In this document: piece after piece, positions 22,737 to 34,972 of the stretch
Layout: each line of letters starts with the position of its first letter
Position numbering within the stretch: position 1 is the stretch's first letter
NCBI GenBank assembly: GCA_026985075.1
Contig: JALSQX010000044.1
Location: forward strand, 1-45,030
DNA: 45,030 nucleotides
Direction of reading: 5' to 3'
Origin: Blastocatellia bacterium
GTDB taxonomy: Bacteria; Acidobacteriota; Blastocatellia; HR10; J050
The notes under the pieces: model-generated
What the model saw: the letters and a program-made list of their open reading frames with translations, nothing else
The model's database searches: none
Told to the model about the DNA's origin: nothing
Made by a program: the position numbers and the translations under genes

Positions 22737-22846
22737 TTGGAGAGGGTTGGCTCGACTGGCCACGGCTCTATCGTAACCAAGAGAACATCGAAGAAATCAC
22801 GTCTCTCTGCTTGGAGAGGGTTGGCTCGACTGGCCACGGCTCTATC
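22737..22846. repeat. 36-nt perfect direct repeat pair enclosing a 38-nt insert
   Basis: 22737-22772 and 22811-22846 are identical (TTGGAGAGGGTTGGCTCGAC… to …GGCTCTATC). The period is 74. The insert 22773-22810 reads NQENIEEITSLC on the plus strand and shares 15 exact bases with an array spacer at 28383-28422 that reads QENIEEA. Confidence 0.8.
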
Positions 22847-23277: not shown

Positions 23278-26200
23278 GTCACAATCCTCTCTGAAGTCGA
23301 GTCTTCATTCCGATTCCTTGGGGCGGGGCTGAGAGTGCGTCTACCGGCTTTGTCGCAATCCTCTCTGAAGTCGAGTCTTCATTCCGATCTGCGGGGTGCT
23401 CGCCCCTAGCGATCTCTATGCTATTGAACGGGTCGCAATCCTCTCTGAAGTCGAGTCTTCATTCCGATGCAAAATAGAAGAGGCGTGGGAAAAAGGATGG
23501 GGCGATGTCGCAATCCTCTCTGAAGTCGAGTCTTCATTCCGATTACATCGAAGTCGCCGTCTGGGGGCGCGGGGAGGACGGGTCGCAATCCTCTCTGAAG
23601 TCGAGTCTTCATTCCGATATGATCTTAGCCCTCGTCACTCTCGGCTTAACGCTGACGTCGCAATCCTCTCTGAAGTCGAGTCTTCATTCCGATTCAAAGC
23701 GAAATCAAAGAAACGCAAAAAAGGGCTAAGAAGTCGCAATCCTCTCTGAAGTCGAGTCTTCATTCCGATAAGATAGAATTCGGAAAAATCACGATATTGA
23801 AAGGAGTAGTCGCAATCCTCTCTGAAGTCGAGTCTTCATTCCGATAGGATAGCAAGATGAAGATAGAATTCGGAAAAATCACGTCGCAATCCTCTCTGAA
23901 GTCGAGTCTTCATTCCGATCCCATACCGTGGGGCGCACACGGCGTTCCATCGCTGTCGCAATCCTCTCTGAAGTCGAGTCTTCATTCCGATTTTTTGTTT
24001 ATGGGACACTGACTAAGGAGGGTTAGATGTAGTCGCAATCCTCTCTGAAGTCGAGTCTTCATTCCGATCGAGCAGTGGGCGATGATCGACGCCGCGCACA
24101 CGGCCGTCGCAATCCTCTCTGAAGTCGAGTCTTCATTCCGATGGAGACATCGCTTTCAAAATCGACGATTACAGTACCACCACTGTCGCAATCCTCTCTG
24201 AAGTCGAGTCTTCATTCCGATAACATGCGCGCCGCCCTGCGGCTCGCCGACGCCGTCGCGTCGCAATCCTCTCTGAAGTCGAGTCTTCATTCCGATTTCC
24301 TCATGGAGCCACTCACCCAAACCCTGGCGCGCGTCGCAATCCTCTCTGAAGTCGAGTCTTCATTCCGATGAAGATTAAGCGAATCTGGCCCGGTGAGCTT
24401 CATCTCGCGTCGCAATCCTCTCTGAAGTCGAGTCTTCATTCCGATTGGTCACGAGGAGCTGGCGAACCTCTGGGCTGAAATGGTCGCAATCCTCTCTGAA
24501 GTCGAGTCTTCATTCCGATGAAAATTGGGTGGTAATACTTTAATTAATCTTGGAGGAGTCGCAATCCTCTCTGAAGTCGAGTCTTCATTCCGATGAACTG
24601 GAAGGAGACGAAGACCCAGCGGACGCTCGGCGTCGCAATCCTCTCTGAAGTCGAGTCTTCATTCCGATATTCTTTTTGGGTTTCGTCGGGTGCGACGCAC
24701 ACACGAGGTCGCAATCCTCTCTGAAGTCGAGTCTTCATTCCGATGGGCATACGAGGGAATTCTGGCCGTGTTGCGGGACACGTCGCAATCCTCTCTGAAG
24801 TCGAGTCTTCATTCCGATCATTCCGGCATCGATGATGGTCATTGTTTGTTGAAGTCGCAATCCTCTCTGAAGTCGAGTCTTCATTCCGATAGGAACTATG
24901 TTGTTAATCGATATCATCAGGAAAGCCTGTCGCAATCCTCTCTGAAGTCGAGTCTTCATTCCGATAAAAATTTGAGAGAGACCTCTTCGAGATTGAATTA
25001 GTGATGTCGCAATCCTCTCTGAAGTCGAGTCTTCATTCCGATGAATTCTGGCCGTGTTGCGGGACACGGCCAGAATGCAGTCGCAATCCTCTCTGAAGTC
25101 GAGTCTTCATTCCGATAATAAGCGGTCCAGAATCTGGGCCGAAGCCATGGCCCGATCGCAATCCTCTCTGAAGTCGAGTCTTCATTCCGATAAGGGGGTT
25201 GCCCGCATCAGCACCCCCGTCCTCATCACATCGCAATCCTCTCTGAAGTCGAGTCTTCATTCCGATCCGGGCAGAGGTGGTCGTCCGATGGACGATCCAT
25301 CCGGTCATCGCAATCCTCTCTGAAGTCGAGTCTTCATTCCGATGAAATTATGTCCAACAACACCATTGATCAGAAGAAATCGCAATCCTCTCTGAAGTCG
25401 AGTCTTCATTCCGATTGCTCGCCCGGGCCCCTATCCGAGTCAGTGAGCGGATTGAAATCATCGCAATCCTCTCTGAAGTCGAGTCTTCATTCCGATGTCG
25501 CCAACCTGGGGACGGACAAAATGAAGGTGAAAAGTCGCAATCCTCTCTGAAGTCGAGTCTTCATTCCGATGGAGGTCGCCGCATGGCGGCGGGGAGACGA
25601 TGGAGAGTCGCAATCCTCTCTGAAGTCGAGTCTTCATTCCGATAGAACAAGCAATAACAATTGTCCGGGCCCAGGATCACCAGTCGCAATCCTCTCTGAA
25701 GTCGAGTCTTCATTCCGATGAAGAAGCTAGACGAGGTCATCGAGAAACTCGATGACGTCGCAATCCTCTCTGAAGTCGAGTCTTCATTCCGATTGCTTCC
25801 AGAGAGAGGGGACATCGCCTATGCCGTGCGTCGCAATCCTCTCTGAAGTCGAGTCTTCATTCCGATGGATATAGCCCATAAAATCCTCTCCTTTGGGTCA
25901 GAGGTCGCAATCCTCTCTGAAGTCGAGTCTTCATTCCGATAGGCATGTATGCTGTTAAATGAAGTCCTTTAGCTAAATACCCGTCGCAATCCTCTCTGAA
26001 GTCGAGTCTTCATTCCGATCGTAAACGCGAACGCGGAATGACCTGCAAAGCCCGCCGCAAGGCGGGTATTTTTGTCGCAATCCTCTCTGAAGTCGAGTCT
26101 TCATTCCGATTACGCGCAGGGATTTGCGCCCTACGCCGACACGATCCGGTCGCAATCCTCTCTGAAGTCGAGTCTTCATTCCGATCACGGTTACACCGGC

Positions 26201-28532
26201 TGGGATCGTCCACGTGGACGATGTCGCAATCCTCTCTGAAGTCGAGTCTTCATTCCGATGGAAGCCAAAGTGGGTTGCGGCTGTACCCCTACCCGACAAC
26301 TGTCGCAATCCTCTCTGAAGTCGAGTCTTCATTCCGATGGTTAGGATGACCGCAAGGAGGCCCTTCGTCCTTTTGTCGCAATCCTCTCTGAAGTCGAGTC
26401 TTCATTCCGATACATCGTTCGGGACCAGGGGCCAGGAAGACCATTGTGGTCGCAATCCTCTCTGAAGTCGAGTCTTCATTCCGATACCTACCCGGGTTCG
26501 GGGTTGGCCACCCGAAAATCCATGTCGCAATCCTCTCTGAAGTCGAGTCTTCATTCCGATGGGTAAAGGGCGTGGTGCTGGGTTGCTGGTGTGCACCGTC
26601 GCAATCCTCTCTGAAGTCGAGTCTTCATTCCGATAGAAATAAGGGAGGCCTTCAGAGCCTCCACACTGAGAAAGCGTCGCAATCCTCTCTGAAGTCGAGT
26701 CTTCATTCCGATCAAATCTATGGCCCGCCGGAGGAGCAGATGAGACTGAGACTGTCGCAATCCTCTCTGAAGTCGAGTCTTCATTCCGATGTGTGGTCCC
26801 TATTCCTCGCCGGGATGGGGAGTAGTCGGTCGCAATCCTCTCTGAAGTCGAGTCTTCATTCCGATGTCTTGTTGATCACTCCCGCCTTACCGAGATCGAC
26901 TTCTGTCGCAATCCTCTCTGAAGTCGAGTCTTCATTCCGATGGGACCATCAAGAAGTGGGTCCGGCTGGGGAGAAATCCCGTCGCAATCCTCTCTGAAGT
27001 CGAGTCTTCATTCCGATCGAGCCCCGGCCCGCGGGATACCCTAAGGGGGAATGGAGGTTTTGTCGCAATCCTCTCTGAAGTCGAGTCTTCATTCCGATAA
27101 GAATTAGGACCCGCATAACCGTGTCGCAGTCAGGGATGTCGCAATCCTCTCTGAAGTCGAGTCTTCATTCCGATGATTATCGTAAATATGAGAAACGTAA
27201 GCGATTGGACTCGTACGTCGCAATCCTCTCTGAAGTCGAGTCTTCATTCCGATACTATCATGTCGGCGAGAACCAGCTATATTTACTGCTGCGTCGCAAT
27301 CCTCTCTGAAGTCGAGTCTTCATTCCGATGAATTCAAGACCCTGGCCAAGCAGCTGGGATTGGAGGTCGCAATCCTCTCTGAAGTCGAGTCTTCATTCCG
27401 ATCACTGAGAACCCGGAAATCCGGGAAGCATTCAGGGCCTCGTCGCAATCCTCTCTGAAGTCGAGTCTTCATTCCGATATCATCGTCTCGGGGAATGCCC
27501 GGCACTGCCGGGAGTGTCGCAATCCTCTCTGAAGTCGAGTCTTCATTCCGATACGATATAAAGGAGGCACTGTCATGAGATGCTATAAAGTATTGTCGCA
27601 ATCCTCTCTGAAGTCGAGTCTTCATTCCGATTGTTCGCGAGGGTTCTGTCGGACGCTCTGGCCTATGGGCGTCGCAATCCTCTCTGAAGTCGAGTCTTCA
27701 TTCCGATAATAACACGCACAGGGCGGGCCAACGGAGGGAACGATGAAAATGTCGCAATCCTCTCTGAAGTCGAGTCTTCATTCCGATGGAATGACAAGAA
27801 AGTAGACCCTCGATTCACCCCCGTCGCAATCCTCTCTGAAGTCGAGTCTTCATTCCGATGTTTATTCACCCCGACCACTGGACGGAGTGGCGTCGTCGCA
27901 ATCCTCTCTGAAGTCGAGTCTTCATTCCGATAGGTTATGCGCGTGAAGCTGGTACTGGAGCAGGCGTCGCAATCCTCTCTGAAGTCGAGTCTTCATTCCG
28001 ATGGGGCGAGAACTCAAAGATACAATCGAGTACGCCGTCGCAATCCTCTCTGAAGTCGAGTCTTCATTCCGATATCACGGTTACATCGGCTGGGATTATA
28101 CATATAGACGAAGTCGCAATCCTCTCTGAAGTCGAGTCTTCATTCCGATAGGTATCGTTCCCGTGTGAATATTGCGGGAACGGTTCTGTCGCAATCCTCT
28201 CTGAAGTCGAGTCTTCATTCCGATATTAGCAAATCCCCTGGCTCCAAAGAGCTAGGGGATTTTTGTCGCAATCCTCTCTGAAGTCGAGTCTTCATTCCGA
28301 TAGCCCATGGCTAATGTTACCACTCTGCTCGGTTGCCAGAAAATGAAGGGAGAAGTCTCTGAAGTCGAGTCTTCATTCCGATAAAGCGTATGGCAGCCAG
28401 GAGAACATCGAAGAAGCATGAAGGGAGAAGTCTCTGAAGTCGAGTCTTCATTCCGATTGGGATTGTACATATAGACGACCAGGACGCGACAAAGGCAGGG
28501 AGAAGTCTCTGAAGTCGAGTCTTCATTCCGAT
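23278..28532 (-). CRISPR. main CRISPR array, about 70 repeats of 37 nt, predicted transcription on the minus strand
   Basis: The plus-strand repeat starts GTCGCAATCCTCTCTGAAGT and ends CGAGTCTTCATTCCGAT. I count 67 full repeats from 23278 to 28301 and three with an altered first part (28348, 28423, 28498). Spacers are mostly 35-46 nt; one at 26020-26073 is about 54. On the minus strand the repeat contains a TGAAG/CTTCA stem and ends GGATTGCGAC, giving an ATTGCGAC crRNA 5' handle similar to the ATTGAAAC/G handles of type III systems. That, the decayed repeats on the left and the cas genes on the right put the leader at the right end. The first repeat has one substitution, and five consecutive repeats (25155-25496) begin with A instead of G. 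Confidence 0.97.
28348..28532 (-). CRISPR. three leader-proximal repeats with a replaced handle region
   Basis: Repeats at 28348-28382, 28423-28457 and 28498-28532 keep TCTCTGAAGTCGAGTCTTCA and the rest of the repeat end. They carry GGGAGAAG in place of GTCGCAATCC. On the minus strand the crRNA handle would become CTTCTCCC instead of ATTGCGAC. Spacers between them (40 nt each) look normal. Confidence 0.85.
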
Positions 28533-28685
28533 AGCCCATGGCTGGGGCGTTTCCCGGTGGGCGACCAAATTGTCAAACAGCATGACGTTTCCAACCCCCA
28601 TGCTTCTCGTCGGTTAGCGTCACCCCCCATTTTGTCGCAAATTTCCACAAACGTCAACCTGAAATTGTGACATTTCGACAGGCCG
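28533..28685 (-). promoter_or_regulatory. predicted CRISPR leader
   Basis: This non-coding sequence adjoins the last repeat and faces the cas genes. It has relatively A/T-rich patches and a promoter-like site: minus strand TTGACG (28657-28652), a 17-base spacer and CAAAAT (28634-28629), reading into the array. The bases touching the last repeat (AGCCCATGGCT) also start the spacer after repeat 28265, as if an older leader end were trapped inside the array. Confidence 0.5.
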
Positions 28686-29162
28686 AATGCTCAACTTCCC
28701 CGATCCCAATCAATTAGCTGAAGCCATTTTGTCGTCGCTCCAAGCCCTCTCTGGTCGCCTCGATCGATTTTCGACAATCGGCCCGCTCCCTTCACCAGGC
28801 CCTCTCTCTAATCCTCAACATATCAAGACGTTACACAATGACTGTGGAGAGCTGCGGAGGCGTTTGTCGCAAGCCCCTCGCCGAACCCCCTCCGAAACCC
28901 TCGCGGCGACAATTTTCGCCGACTCGATGCCGGGGTTCCATCTGACGATCTTGGCCGCAATCTATTGAGAATTGCGAACTTCCCGCCACAAGCCCGGCCT
29001 TGGAGGAATTGTCGCAAACCGGTGCTCCTCCCCAGCACATGATGGACAGCGGTTCGGCGACCGACGTTCCTCCTCATAGTCAGCGACCTGCCCCGTTGAC
29101 GAACCATTTCAATGCACCACCCTGTGGTCGAAGCTCGCCATCGGGTGCCGATGACGTCCAAG

Positions 29163-29350
29163 CTCTCTGCGTGTCCAGGCTCAACGTGCTCTGATGAGTG
29201 CCTACATCGAACTTGCTACGTGGAGACGTGACGAATCTCTCTGCGTGTCCAGGCTCAACGTGCTCTGATGAGTGCCGAGGCAATAAAGGAGGAACAGCGA
29301 TGACCATTCTCTCCCTGTGGGTCCAGGCTCATCGTGCTTTGATGAGCGCT
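29163..29350. CRISPR. candidate mini-array with its own repeat (3 copies, 2 spacers)
   Basis: Two identical 40-nt copies (29163-29202, 29237-29276; core GTCCAGGCTCAACGTGCTCT) and a third diverged copy (29309-29350) are spaced 74 and 72 bases. The two inserts are 34 and 32 nt. Insert 1 reads YIELATWRRDE in plus-strand sense; insert 2 contains AAAGGAGGAACAGCGATG, a gene-start junction in plus-strand sense. The repeat is unrelated to the main array's repeat. Confidence 0.6.
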
Positions 29351-32143: not shown

Positions 32144-32392
32144 CTACCGGGCAGTGACGCCCTGAACCTCGCAACGCTGGAGGCAGCCGCGACAGAGATA
32201 GTAGTAGCGGATGCTATCCTCTCGCGGATTGATCAATTCGGCGAGCACCGCCTGCAGGCGGGCGATTTCGTCCGACGTCAGCTCGCACTCGAATACGCTG
32301 TATTGCACCCAGGTGCCGTAATCTTTCAGCGCCTCGAACACTCTGGTACGGCGCCGGTCATCGCTGATATCGTAACTGATGACGATGAACAT
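32144..32392 (-). CDS. cas2: CRISPR-associated Cas2
   Basis: An 82-residue Cas2 with the canonical start MFIVISYDISDDRRR (Asp8 of the beta-alpha fold), YGTWVQYSVFECELT in the middle and RYYYLCRGC near the C-terminus. It forms the central dimer of the Cas1-Cas2 spacer integration complex. ATG 32392 gives the standard N-terminus; an upstream in-frame ATG would add a non-homologous extension. It lies about 180 bases upstream of RT-cas1 and 85 bases downstream of the CARF gene, all on the minus strand, consistent with one operon. Confidence 0.95.
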   Translation of the reverse strand: MFIVISYDISDDRRRTRVFEALKDYGTWVQYSVFECELTSDEIARLQAVLAELINPREDSIRYYYLCRGCLQRCEVQGVTAR

Positions 32393-32477
32393 GGCGGCCG
32401 AGAGGAGCCAAACGCGCATTAGAATGAAAACGGCCATTCGACCGGGGGAGTACGGCCCCTTTCACAATGAACGCCGT

Positions 32478-33764
32478 TCAGAAGATCGCCCGGATTCGGG
32501 GAAAGGTGGCTTTCTCTCGCAGTCGGCGTTTCTTCAACTCGGGAACGAACGCTTCGGCCAGGGTCACCACCTCCCGGCGCAGTTCCTCGAACTTCTTTCG
32601 CGTCACCGGGGTCGTCCCGTGAGCGTTGATGGAATCATTCCGCGCTTTGAGCAGGTGGCGCAGCCGCTTATTATCCAGATAGAGTCGCGCCCGCTCGTCG
32701 TTGAGCGCTTCGATCAGTCGATAGCTCCGGTCCAACCCGATGCTGATGACGCGCTGGGCTCGTCCGACTTCGGGAAACAAGTGGTAGACCTCGCGAGGGA
32801 GTTCGCTCTTGCGCAGGTTAGAGGTATCCAGACCGTAAGGAGCCAGAGCCAGTTGCGCGACGAACTCGGTCGCTCGATAGAGGCGAGCGACGGCATCATC
32901 GTATCGACCTTCTTCGGCGCGCCGATCGGCGTTGGCGAACAAATCGGCCAGCAGTTCGGGGGAGAATTTCAATCCCAGGAGTTTGGGCGCGCTCAGGTTC
33001 ACTTTTCGTTTGCGCGCCGCTTCCAGGAGCTGGAGTTTCCGCTGAATCCGACCGAGCAATTCCTTATTCGGTCTGAGATCAAGGCTGAGGGCCCGCAGAT
33101 ACGGTTTCGGGAGGGCGCTCAGGTGGGCGTGGGCCTGGAGATGATCGAAGCGATCCCAGGCCTGGTAAGCGGCGAACAGATCTCGCCAGAAAGCGAACTC
33201 CCGCTGAATATCGGGCCGCATGCAGGAGGAGATGACCTGCTCGATGAGCGACAGGCCGCGATCGAACAGATACTGATTGAAGAGCAACTTGAGCTGGCGG
33301 CGATGCTCATCGATGAGCAACTGCATCGGATAGACGCTGACCACGCGTTCAGTGCCCGTCAGCACGCGACCGGTGTGCGGATCGCGCGTGCCGGTGACGT
33401 AGACCAGGCGCTCCACACCGAGCGCAGTGGCCGCGATACTCAGTCCGGCGGTCATCGCTTTGGTGCCGCTGGTGAAATCGACATCGATGTCCGTCAACGC
33501 CACGCCCTGATCGATGAGCGCGAGAATAGCGGCTTTGGCGTCTTCAGCGCACTGCTCGACATCGTCCGGATCTTGAACGAGATGCACTGGCTGGAATCGG
33601 CCGGCGAACCCGGGGACCAAGGACGTCAGCCGATCGAGCGTTCGCTGGCTCTCTTCACTGGCCAGAAAGACGATCCGATCCGGATTGAGCGTTTGAATGG
33701 ATTGAGCCAATCCATGCTCTACTCCCCGACCCGTACCCAATGTCATCACCAGATATTTGGTCAT
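32478..33764 (-). CDS. CARF-HEPN ribonuclease, Csm6/TIGR02710-like
   Basis: A 428-residue protein. The N-terminal CARF domain begins MTKYLVMTLGTGRGVE and contains the ligand-loop motif VDFTSGTKAMTAGLS (95-109), a signature of the TIGR02710/Csm6-like family. The C-terminal helical part holds a HEPN motif, R375-N-x5-H382 (RNDSINAHG). In type III systems such proteins are RNases switched on by cyclic oligoadenylate made by Cas10. GAGGAGGG upstream fits ATG 33764 (or 33767). No Cas10 is in the window, so the activating signal must come from elsewhere in the genome. Confidence 0.9.
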   Translation of the reverse strand: MTKYLVMTLGTGRGVEHGLAQSIQTLNPDRIVFLASEESQRTLDRLTSLVPGFAGRFQPVHLVQDPDDVEQCAEDAKAAILALIDQGVALTDIDVDFTSGTKAMTAGLSIAATALGVERLVYVTGTRDPHTGRVLTGTERVVSVYPMQLLIDEHRRQLKLLFNQYLFDRGLSLIEQVISSCMRPDIQREFAFWRDLFAAYQAWDRFDHLQAHAHLSALPKPYLRALSLDLRPNKELLGRIQRKLQLLEAARKRKVNLSAPKLLGLKFSPELLADLFANADRRAEEGRYDDAVARLYRATEFVAQLALAPYGLDTSNLRKSELPREVYHLFPEVGRAQRVISIGLDRSYRLIEALNDERARLYLDNKRLRHLLKARNDSINAHGTTPVTRKKFEELRREVVTLAEAFVPELKKRRLREKATFPRIRAIF

Positions 33765-33767
33765 CAT

Positions 33768-33943: not shown

Positions 33944-34972
33944 TCACACTTCCTCCAGCTTGAAGACTTCCTCGTAGGTTCCCATCTCCCGAAAGTAATT
34001 GTAGACGCTGGCGCGAACGAATCTTCCCAGGGCTACACCCACGCAGAAGGCGATGGGCAATGGCGTGGAGAGGAAGAGATGGAGTCGCTCGACGCCTTCT
34101 CGTCCCATCATCTCCAGTAACGGCGTGGCCACTTCGCGCGCCAGGCGAATCCAATCGGCGCTGAGAGGGACCGTTCCCGGGGACCGGGATTCAATCGTCA
34201 CCACCGGGCGCTGATCGGCCCGCGCCCGCTGGCGGACGTCGCCGATGGGATTATGCCCGGTCAGGTGAATGGCCACATAGACTTGAGAGCGGTCGTCCAG
34301 ATCGAGGCGTTCCATCCCCGTGACGCGCACGAGCTGGTACTGATCCACCCGGCTCTTCAGAATGTGCGGCCCCTCGGGGATGGTCACGGAACTGAAATCA
34401 ACCACCGGATGATAGGGCATGGTTCCCGTCCCTGGCATGAAATGGTAGTAGACGAAATCGGTCCGACTCCCGATGACCGCTCCCAGCGCCATAGCCAAGG
34501 CGGCCGGGCCGTTCATGAACAGATGATAGACTTTTCGCCCGGGTATCCGTTCGGCCAACCGCCAGAAGCGCCGGTCGATCTTGGCGATGGTCTCCCGCCA
34601 GACGGCCGGATTGGAAGGCAGGGGCGACTCCCGGCGAAAGATCCAATCCTCACGAAGCAGGCCGAACGTCTCCTCTAACAAGGACACCTCCAGCCGATAC
34701 CCGGTCAGGGCTTCCTCGACCTGACTCAACGTATCTCGATATTGCTCATCCGATTTCCCGACCACGACGAGAAAGGGCACCTTCTTTTCCCGTTGGAGCT
34801 TCAGCTTTCGGTAAATATAGGAGACGGCGAGTCCTCCCATGGCCACGATGGTGATGATGCGAAGAATAGACAGATGGCCTTCGGCCACAGCATCGGCGAC
34901 GAATCCGAGTCCGGCGATGACGATGAACCAGAAATCCTGATCGACGACGATGAGCTTGATCGTCCCTCTCAT
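33944..34972 (-). CDS. two-TM membrane protein with a C-terminal SAVED domain
   Basis: A 342-residue protein. Two membrane helices (about 14-30 and 33-55) are followed by a basic stop (YRKLKLQREKK). The rest resembles a SAVED domain, two fused CARF-like halves: the first with VYHLFMNGPAALAMALGAVI and FVYYHFMPG, the second with QVYVAIHLTGHNPIGDV, LHLFLSTPLPIAFCVGVALG and SVYNYFREMGTYEEVFKLEE. SAVED domains bind cyclic nucleotides in CBASS and in some type III CRISPR effectors. TM-SAVED proteins (Cap14-like) are known from CBASS, but no CD-NTase gene is here. As the first gene of the cas operon it is probably a signal-gated membrane effector (inference). Confidence 0.82.
   Translation of the reverse strand: MRGTIKLIVVDQDFWFIVIAGLGFVADAVAEGHLSILRIITIVAMGGLAVSYIYRKLKLQREKKVPFLVVVGKSDEQYRDTLSQVEEALTGYRLEVSLLEETFGLLREDWIFRRESPLPSNPAVWRETIAKIDRRFWRLAERIPGRKVYHLFMNGPAALAMALGAVIGSRTDFVYYHFMPGTGTMPYHPVVDFSSVTIPEGPHILKSRVDQYQLVRVTGMERLDLDDRSQVYVAIHLTGHNPIGDVRQRARADQRPVVTIESRSPGTVPLSADWIRLAREVATPLLEMMGREGVERLHLFLSTPLPIAFCVGVALGRFVRASVYNYFREMGTYEEVFKLEEV

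Follow-up and report, generated by a model that had tools for sequence, protein, structure and literature searches.

The spacers of CRISPR array W, which adjoins a gene for a reverse transcriptase-Cas1 fusion (RT-Cas1) in an Acidobacteriota genome, show a real bias toward the coding sense on the plus strand, as judged from coding statistics and without protospacers. A coding model, the asymmetry of Shine-Dalgarno (SD) motifs and homologous pairs of spacers indicate that the crRNA is complementary to the coding strand for clearly over half of the spacers. We suggest that W is probably a natural type III (III-D-like) RNA-targeting array whose bias is maintained mainly by selection, with RT-Cas1 not being required for it. 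At stake is what gives type III spacers their orientation, RNA-directed acquisition or later selection, and the presence of RT-Cas1, RT-less III-B and I-B/III-D arrays in one genome partly separates the two.

Array W and its genomic context

The genome comprises 5.2 Mb in 105 contigs, one of which is the window, that is, the whole stretch of 45,030 nucleotides that was analyzed. The features of the window are as follows.

23278-28532, crRNA from the minus strand: CRISPR array W, 70 repeats and 69 spacers
28342-28532, minus: three leader-proximal repeats with an altered crRNA-strand 3' end (AGAGACTTCTCCCT replaces AGAGAGGATTGCGAC)
28533-28850, minus: leader of W, homologous by alignment to that of C102, another array in this genome
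29624-32032, minus: RT-Cas1 fusion, a single ORF with an RT, a maturase X-like (group II intron) and a Cas1 domain
32147-32461, minus: Cas2 (Pfam CRISPR_Cas2, 2.6e-26)
32478-33767, minus: Csx1/Csm6-type CARF-HEPN ancillary nuclease
33944-34972, minus: SAVED-domain cyclic-nucleotide sensor protein (Pfam SAVED, 3e-19; PADLOC SAVED4)

A sequence-only reading of this DNA had described the array and predicted that its crRNAs come from the minus strand. The 70 repeats and 69 spacers were verified; the repeats are 37 nt long and read ATCGGAATGAAGACTCGACTTCAGAGAGGATTGCGAC on the crRNA strand, and the spacers are 34 to 54 nt long. The predicted strand agrees with the alignment of the minus strand of 28533-28850 to the leader of C102, which extends over about 300 nt with roughly 70% identity and is flush with the first repeat. 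The C102 repeat has the usual end ATTGAAAC, and the matching end of the W repeat is ATTGCGAC. Because of this leader homology and these repeat ends, we assign the crRNA strand of W to the minus strand, from which the array is predicted to be transcribed. As the three repeats nearest the leader end in AGAGACTTCTCCCT, the newest units would be without the usual 5' handle. The first 11 bp of spacer 67 (28302), AGCCCATGGCT, are the same as the opening of the leader. On the other side of W lies the remnant of a decayed array (22737-22846), in which one 38-nt spacer is flanked by two copies of a 36-bp repeat unlike that of W; degenerate W repeats adjoin it (22698, 23129). Three 43-nt direct repeats with a spacing of 74 nt lie between the leader and RT-Cas1 (29160-29350).

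The leader, RT-Cas1, Cas2, the CARF-HEPN nuclease and the SAVED protein follow to the right of W, all on the minus strand, so that the RT-Cas1 reported next to the array is indeed present, along with Cas2 and Csx1/Csm6. The fusion matches Pfam RVT_1 (3e-29), GIIM (6e-8) and Cas_Cas1 (3e-69) and PADLOC Cas1_IIIb (4e-145), and its catalytic [FY]xDD motif is intact (RYGDD at residues 247-251, YGDD at 248-251). The window itself contains no effector gene. A type III-D gene set of Cas10, Csx10-type Cas5 and Cas7/Csm3 is located on contig C102, beside the array with the homologous leader and repeat, and the similarity of leader and repeat suggests that W may be served by this Cas10/Csx10 effector. 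The other arrays of the genome that were compared with W are as follows.

C102: 61 spacers, beside III-D-type Cas10, Csx10-type and Cas7 genes
L010:1-7940 and L011:150-5050: arrays C41 and C63, 103 and 63 spacers, with a common repeat; C41 adjoins a III-B Cmr operon whose Cas1 is RT-less
L153:2410-19829 (contig C4): array C4, 264 spacers, beside I-B genes, a III-D Cas10/Csx10 set, Cas4 and Cas1

Searches for spacer sources

No convincing protospacer was found in phages, plasmids, viral contigs or 98 related genomes, and spacer orientation was therefore inferred from coding statistics. A blastn search with the W spacers gave a single unconvincing 29-nt match to phages (E 0.5) and a single 39-nt match to Streptomyces plasmids (E 0.01) in a GC-rich spacer, which was rejected. 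The spacers of C41 and C102 had no match in phages, seven patterns, exact or codon-degenerate, built from spacers and shared peptides were all absent from viral contigs, and consensus peptides gave nothing convincing against phages and relatives. Five spacers (W68 at 28383-28420, C102_5, C102_37, C102_40 and C4_233) and the relic spacer at 22773-22810 are similar to the beginning of a histone-H1-like gene of the host (C4:45708; L152:9523-9750), all with 2 to 4 mismatches and in mixed orientation. The other W spacers had no match in 762 kb of host DNA or among the whole-genome matches listed.

Coding sense of the spacers

The bias had been proposed from stop-free, protein-like frames on the plus strand. 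The five peptides quoted for it are correct translations of the spacers, and the frames themselves are no evidence of bias, being alike on both strands (2.13 versus 2.04 open frames per spacer; plus richer in 22 spacers, minus in 17, with 30 ties). Counting open frames was thus rejected as an uninformative test of strand. The claim itself holds on other grounds, namely a periodic coding model, the asymmetry of GGAGG and the homologous pairs. The model was third order and three-periodic and was trained on 345 ORFs of at least 250 aa from the host, not on viral genes; it classified 73.7% of held-out 38-mers of host genes correctly. According to its log-likelihood, 49 of the 69 W spacers are plus-sense (71.0%, p = 6e-4; Wilcoxon 2e-4), and the result was the same after removal of 3 nt at each spacer end. 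A mixture estimate put the sense fraction at 0.84 (0.68-0.95), with 0.85 for all-sense control data. Because the model is only 74% accurate on true host-gene 38-mers, nearly all W spacers could be sense. A non-periodic strand model called only 62% (p = 0.05). The sense side of W is purine rich (R = 0.558), which does not drive the score, since the coding strands of the host have no purine excess (R = 0.50). One spacer, 25867-25903, had been said to read better on the minus strand, but its coding score is weakly plus (+0.8).

With the same model, spacers were called sense opposite the crRNA in 55.7% of cases in C102 (not significant), 62.1% in C41 (p = 0.018), 63.5% in C63 (p = 0.043) and 44.7% in C4. 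The motif GGAGG occurs 10 times on the plus strand of the W spacers versus once on the minus strand, and the SD core 14 versus 5 times. The ratios of GGAGG between sense and crRNA strand in the other arrays were 10:2 (C102), 6:3 (C41), 8:3 (C63) and 9:23 (C4).

Homologous spacers often occur within one genome, matching homologous genes in different invaders, and if spacers are drawn from one sense only, such homologues must share orientation. We therefore compared homologous spacers within this genome, counting n-1 comparisons per homology group. All five pairs within W were co-oriented (p = 0.03; few pairs), as were 13 of 14 in W and C102 together (p = 9e-4) and 24 of 24 in the III-B arrays C41 and C63 (p = 6e-8). 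In C4, where concordance can be raised by a PAM position in common, the figure was 16 of 22. Pairs between a type III array and the I-B array C4 were mixed (concordant to discordant, 5:6 for W-C4 and 10:7 for C41-C4). Substitutions in homologous pairs were mostly synonymous or conservative when the coding sense was read opposite the crRNA (25:3 in C41, 11:4 in C63, 10:2 in C102); inside W alone this codon-substitution test was equivocal (5:4). Three W spacers show what such a group looks like.

26186-26222, plus: spacer W39, reads ITVTPAGIVHVDD; homologous to W64 and W69
28074-28112, plus: spacer W64, reads ITVTSAGIIHIDE
28458-28495, plus: spacer W69, reads GIVHIDDQDATK; same protein family and orientation

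The peptide ITVT[PS]AGI[VI]H[VI]D[DE] is common to the three, with codon changes. Many C41 and C63 spacers match one small protein family (MT..ELKERL..LPEDER...EGRLTAQFVFQLIVGVV). At least 10 of them, in a single orientation, target divergent homologues of the small protein MT[KRQH][ED]EL[KR]...LPEDER..., one gene family of unsampled viruses having been sampled repeatedly. The orientation test needs no database and can be used for spacers of unknown source, which are most of the RT-linked spacers.

T-runs at spacer boundaries

The sense strand of the W spacers contains six runs of at least four T, four of which stop exactly at the sense 3' boundary, compared with 0.26 expected (rotation test p = 2e-4, uncorrected for the 8 choices of base and end). 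The four spacers are as follows.

26020-26073, plus: spacer W37 (54 nt), a gene end (...VNANAE stop, by translation) with a terminator hairpin; boundary T5
26339-26374, plus: spacer W41, weak terminator-like hairpin; boundary T4
27018-27061, plus: spacer W50, boundary T4; terminator doubtful, the T-run being partly paired
28225-28264, plus: spacer W66, terminator hairpin of -23.8 kcal/mol; boundary T5

The predicted folds of W37 and W66 are those of textbook terminators, in which the T-run lies outside the stem or at its foot, and on this basis at least two of the four spacers are intrinsic terminators. The pattern was first seen in W and then sought in other arrays. Other RT-Cas1 loci had nine boundary T-runs versus 3.5 expected (p = 0.006), four of them from array L075, where several lack a hairpin; plain-Cas1 arrays had three versus 2.8 expected. 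There was no boundary T-run among the 149 spacers of the RT array L186, and for runs of at least five T in the other RT loci the 3' end of the crRNA strand was enriched too (8 versus 2.9, p = 0.007). A-tailing of the kind described for Marinomonas mediterranea was also sought at RNA 3' ends, and A-runs at the sense 3' end were not significantly in excess (8 versus 4.5 expected).

The boundary T-runs are few and partly symmetric between the strands, and as a footprint of RNA capture they are unproven. It is possible, if rather doubtful, that RT-Cas1 arrays hold a readable footprint of this kind, in which some spacers stop at the U-tract of an intrinsic terminator, the 3' end of a transcript, and which plain-Cas1 arrays are without. 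If true, RNA-derived spacers would be recognizable in genome sequence with no need for their source. We know of no earlier mark in the sequence of natural arrays that records capture of RNA 3' ends; the boundary T-runs would be the first such mark if a larger set upholds them.

Origin of the bias

The RT adjoining W need not cause the bias. Sense calls amounted to 63.8% in the RT set of arrays versus 62.7% in the plain-Cas1 III-B arrays C41 and C63 (p = 0.001), and since the two are alike, the bias follows the type III effector and not the RT. In 18 other RT-Cas1 loci, with array orientation taken from the repeat end, 272 of 428 spacers were sense (63.6%, p = 2e-8). This is explained most simply by selection for guides that target RNA, a process known already from type III, in which 65% of spacers on average, and up to 88% in Moraxella III-B, come from the coding strand (PMC8482600) and in which the bias of RT-less Thermus arrays is due to selection (PMC7515739). 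The sequence-only reading had offered two causes, selection for RNA targeting and capture from transcripts. The former fits best, because the III-B arrays of this genome, whose Cas1 has no RT, are biased to about the same degree; the latter is dispensable, the bias being explicable without it, and has separate, modest support from the boundary T-runs. A gradient from leader to distal end, as a mark of selection, was not significant in the pooled RT arrays (0.60, 0.59, 0.70; p = 0.12).

We therefore propose a III-D-like effector combined with an RT-Cas1/Cas2 adaptation module. Most W spacers would derive from the coding-sense strand of genes in unsampled mobile elements, represented on the plus strand of the window, and the minus-strand crRNAs would be antisense to the target mRNAs. 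The Cas10 effector would recognize transcripts only through antisense crRNAs, and selection would thereby keep the orientation bias. Some or many spacers are probably taken from RNA by RT-Cas1, which may also contribute moderately to the bias at acquisition, but the bias would be possible without it. We infer the spacer targets, the use of the C102-side effector by W and selection as the cause. Against this proposal, the bias of C102 is only weak (56%, not significant), although this array is expected to depend on the same RT-Cas1 and effector as W; its GGAGG asymmetry (10:2) nonetheless agrees with a bias. Also against it are the equivocal codon-substitution test inside W, the lack of a protospacer and of a leader-to-distal gradient, and the absence of an effector gene from the window.

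In an unlikely alternative, the bias is set at acquisition: RT-Cas1/Cas2 would take up mRNA fragments, among them 3' ends at terminators, and always insert them in the same direction, making spacers sense from the start. This alternative would account for the four of six T-runs at W boundaries, the terminator folds of W37, W66 and weakly W41, and the excess in other RT-Cas1 loci that plain-Cas1 arrays do not show, and extra nucleotides are known at the junctions of spacers acquired by RT-Cas1 (PMC11014452). It is at odds with the comparable bias of the RT-less III-B arrays, with the lack of boundary T-runs in L186 and with the enrichment at the crRNA-strand 3' end, by which the boundary signal is not purely sense. 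Moreover, RNA-derived spacers that the RT-Cas1 of Marinomonas mediterranea adds to its array can face either way (PMC5576922, PMC11014452). That there is no true strand bias, the frames and signals arising by chance in short GC-rich sequences, is very improbable: the equality of stop-free frames and the borderline non-periodic model speak for chance, whereas the periodic model (p = 6e-4), GGAGG (10:1), the concordant pairs, the same direction in independent RT-Cas1 arrays and the opposite tendency of the large C4 array of the same genome speak against it. Nor would we expect the spacers to come from abundant transcripts of the host itself. The resemblance of five spacers to the start of the histone-H1-like gene points that way, but its mismatches and mixed orientations, the lack of host matches for other W spacers in the DNA covered and a phage-borne homologue as an equally likely source make such an origin highly unlikely.

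Comparison with known systems

Selection for antisense guides, as we propose for W, has been described for other type III arrays with a coding bias, including those of Thermus thermophilus, whose crRNAs are likewise antisense to mRNA and whose bias is credited to selection also where RT is lacking (PMC8482600, PMC7515739). Here, unlike there, the bias is deduced without protospacers, and RT, RT-less type III and I-B modules can be compared inside one genome. The type III-B system of M. mediterranea likewise has an RT-Cas1 fusion and Cas2 beside a type III array, whereas the likely effector here is III-D-like and lies on another contig. Its new spacers enter with only a marginal antisense preference (PMC5576922), and its 3' tails are mostly A (PMC11014452), in contrast to the T-runs at the boundaries here. 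The RT-Cas1 proteins of Fusicatenibacter saccharivorans and Vibrio vulnificus are associated with III-D, like the likely system here, and have been shown to acquire spacers from RNA in vivo (PMC11014452), whereas the present system is known from its genes alone. For the RT-linked III-B spacers of Arthrospira platensis, the accessible part of the study (PMC5513706) reports virtually no identifiable source, as here, and, unlike the present work, contains no coding-strand analysis.

Array C4 differs from the others in that its SD polarity is reversed (16 on the sense versus 41 on the crRNA strand, duplicates removed; R = 0.46), as if its crRNAs were coding-sense. Identical stretches of 19 to 25 nt link W34 (25794-25829) to C4_84, W65 to C4_37, W59 to C4_10 and W61 to C4_181; thus, the RT-Cas1 array and the I-B array have both recorded the same elements.
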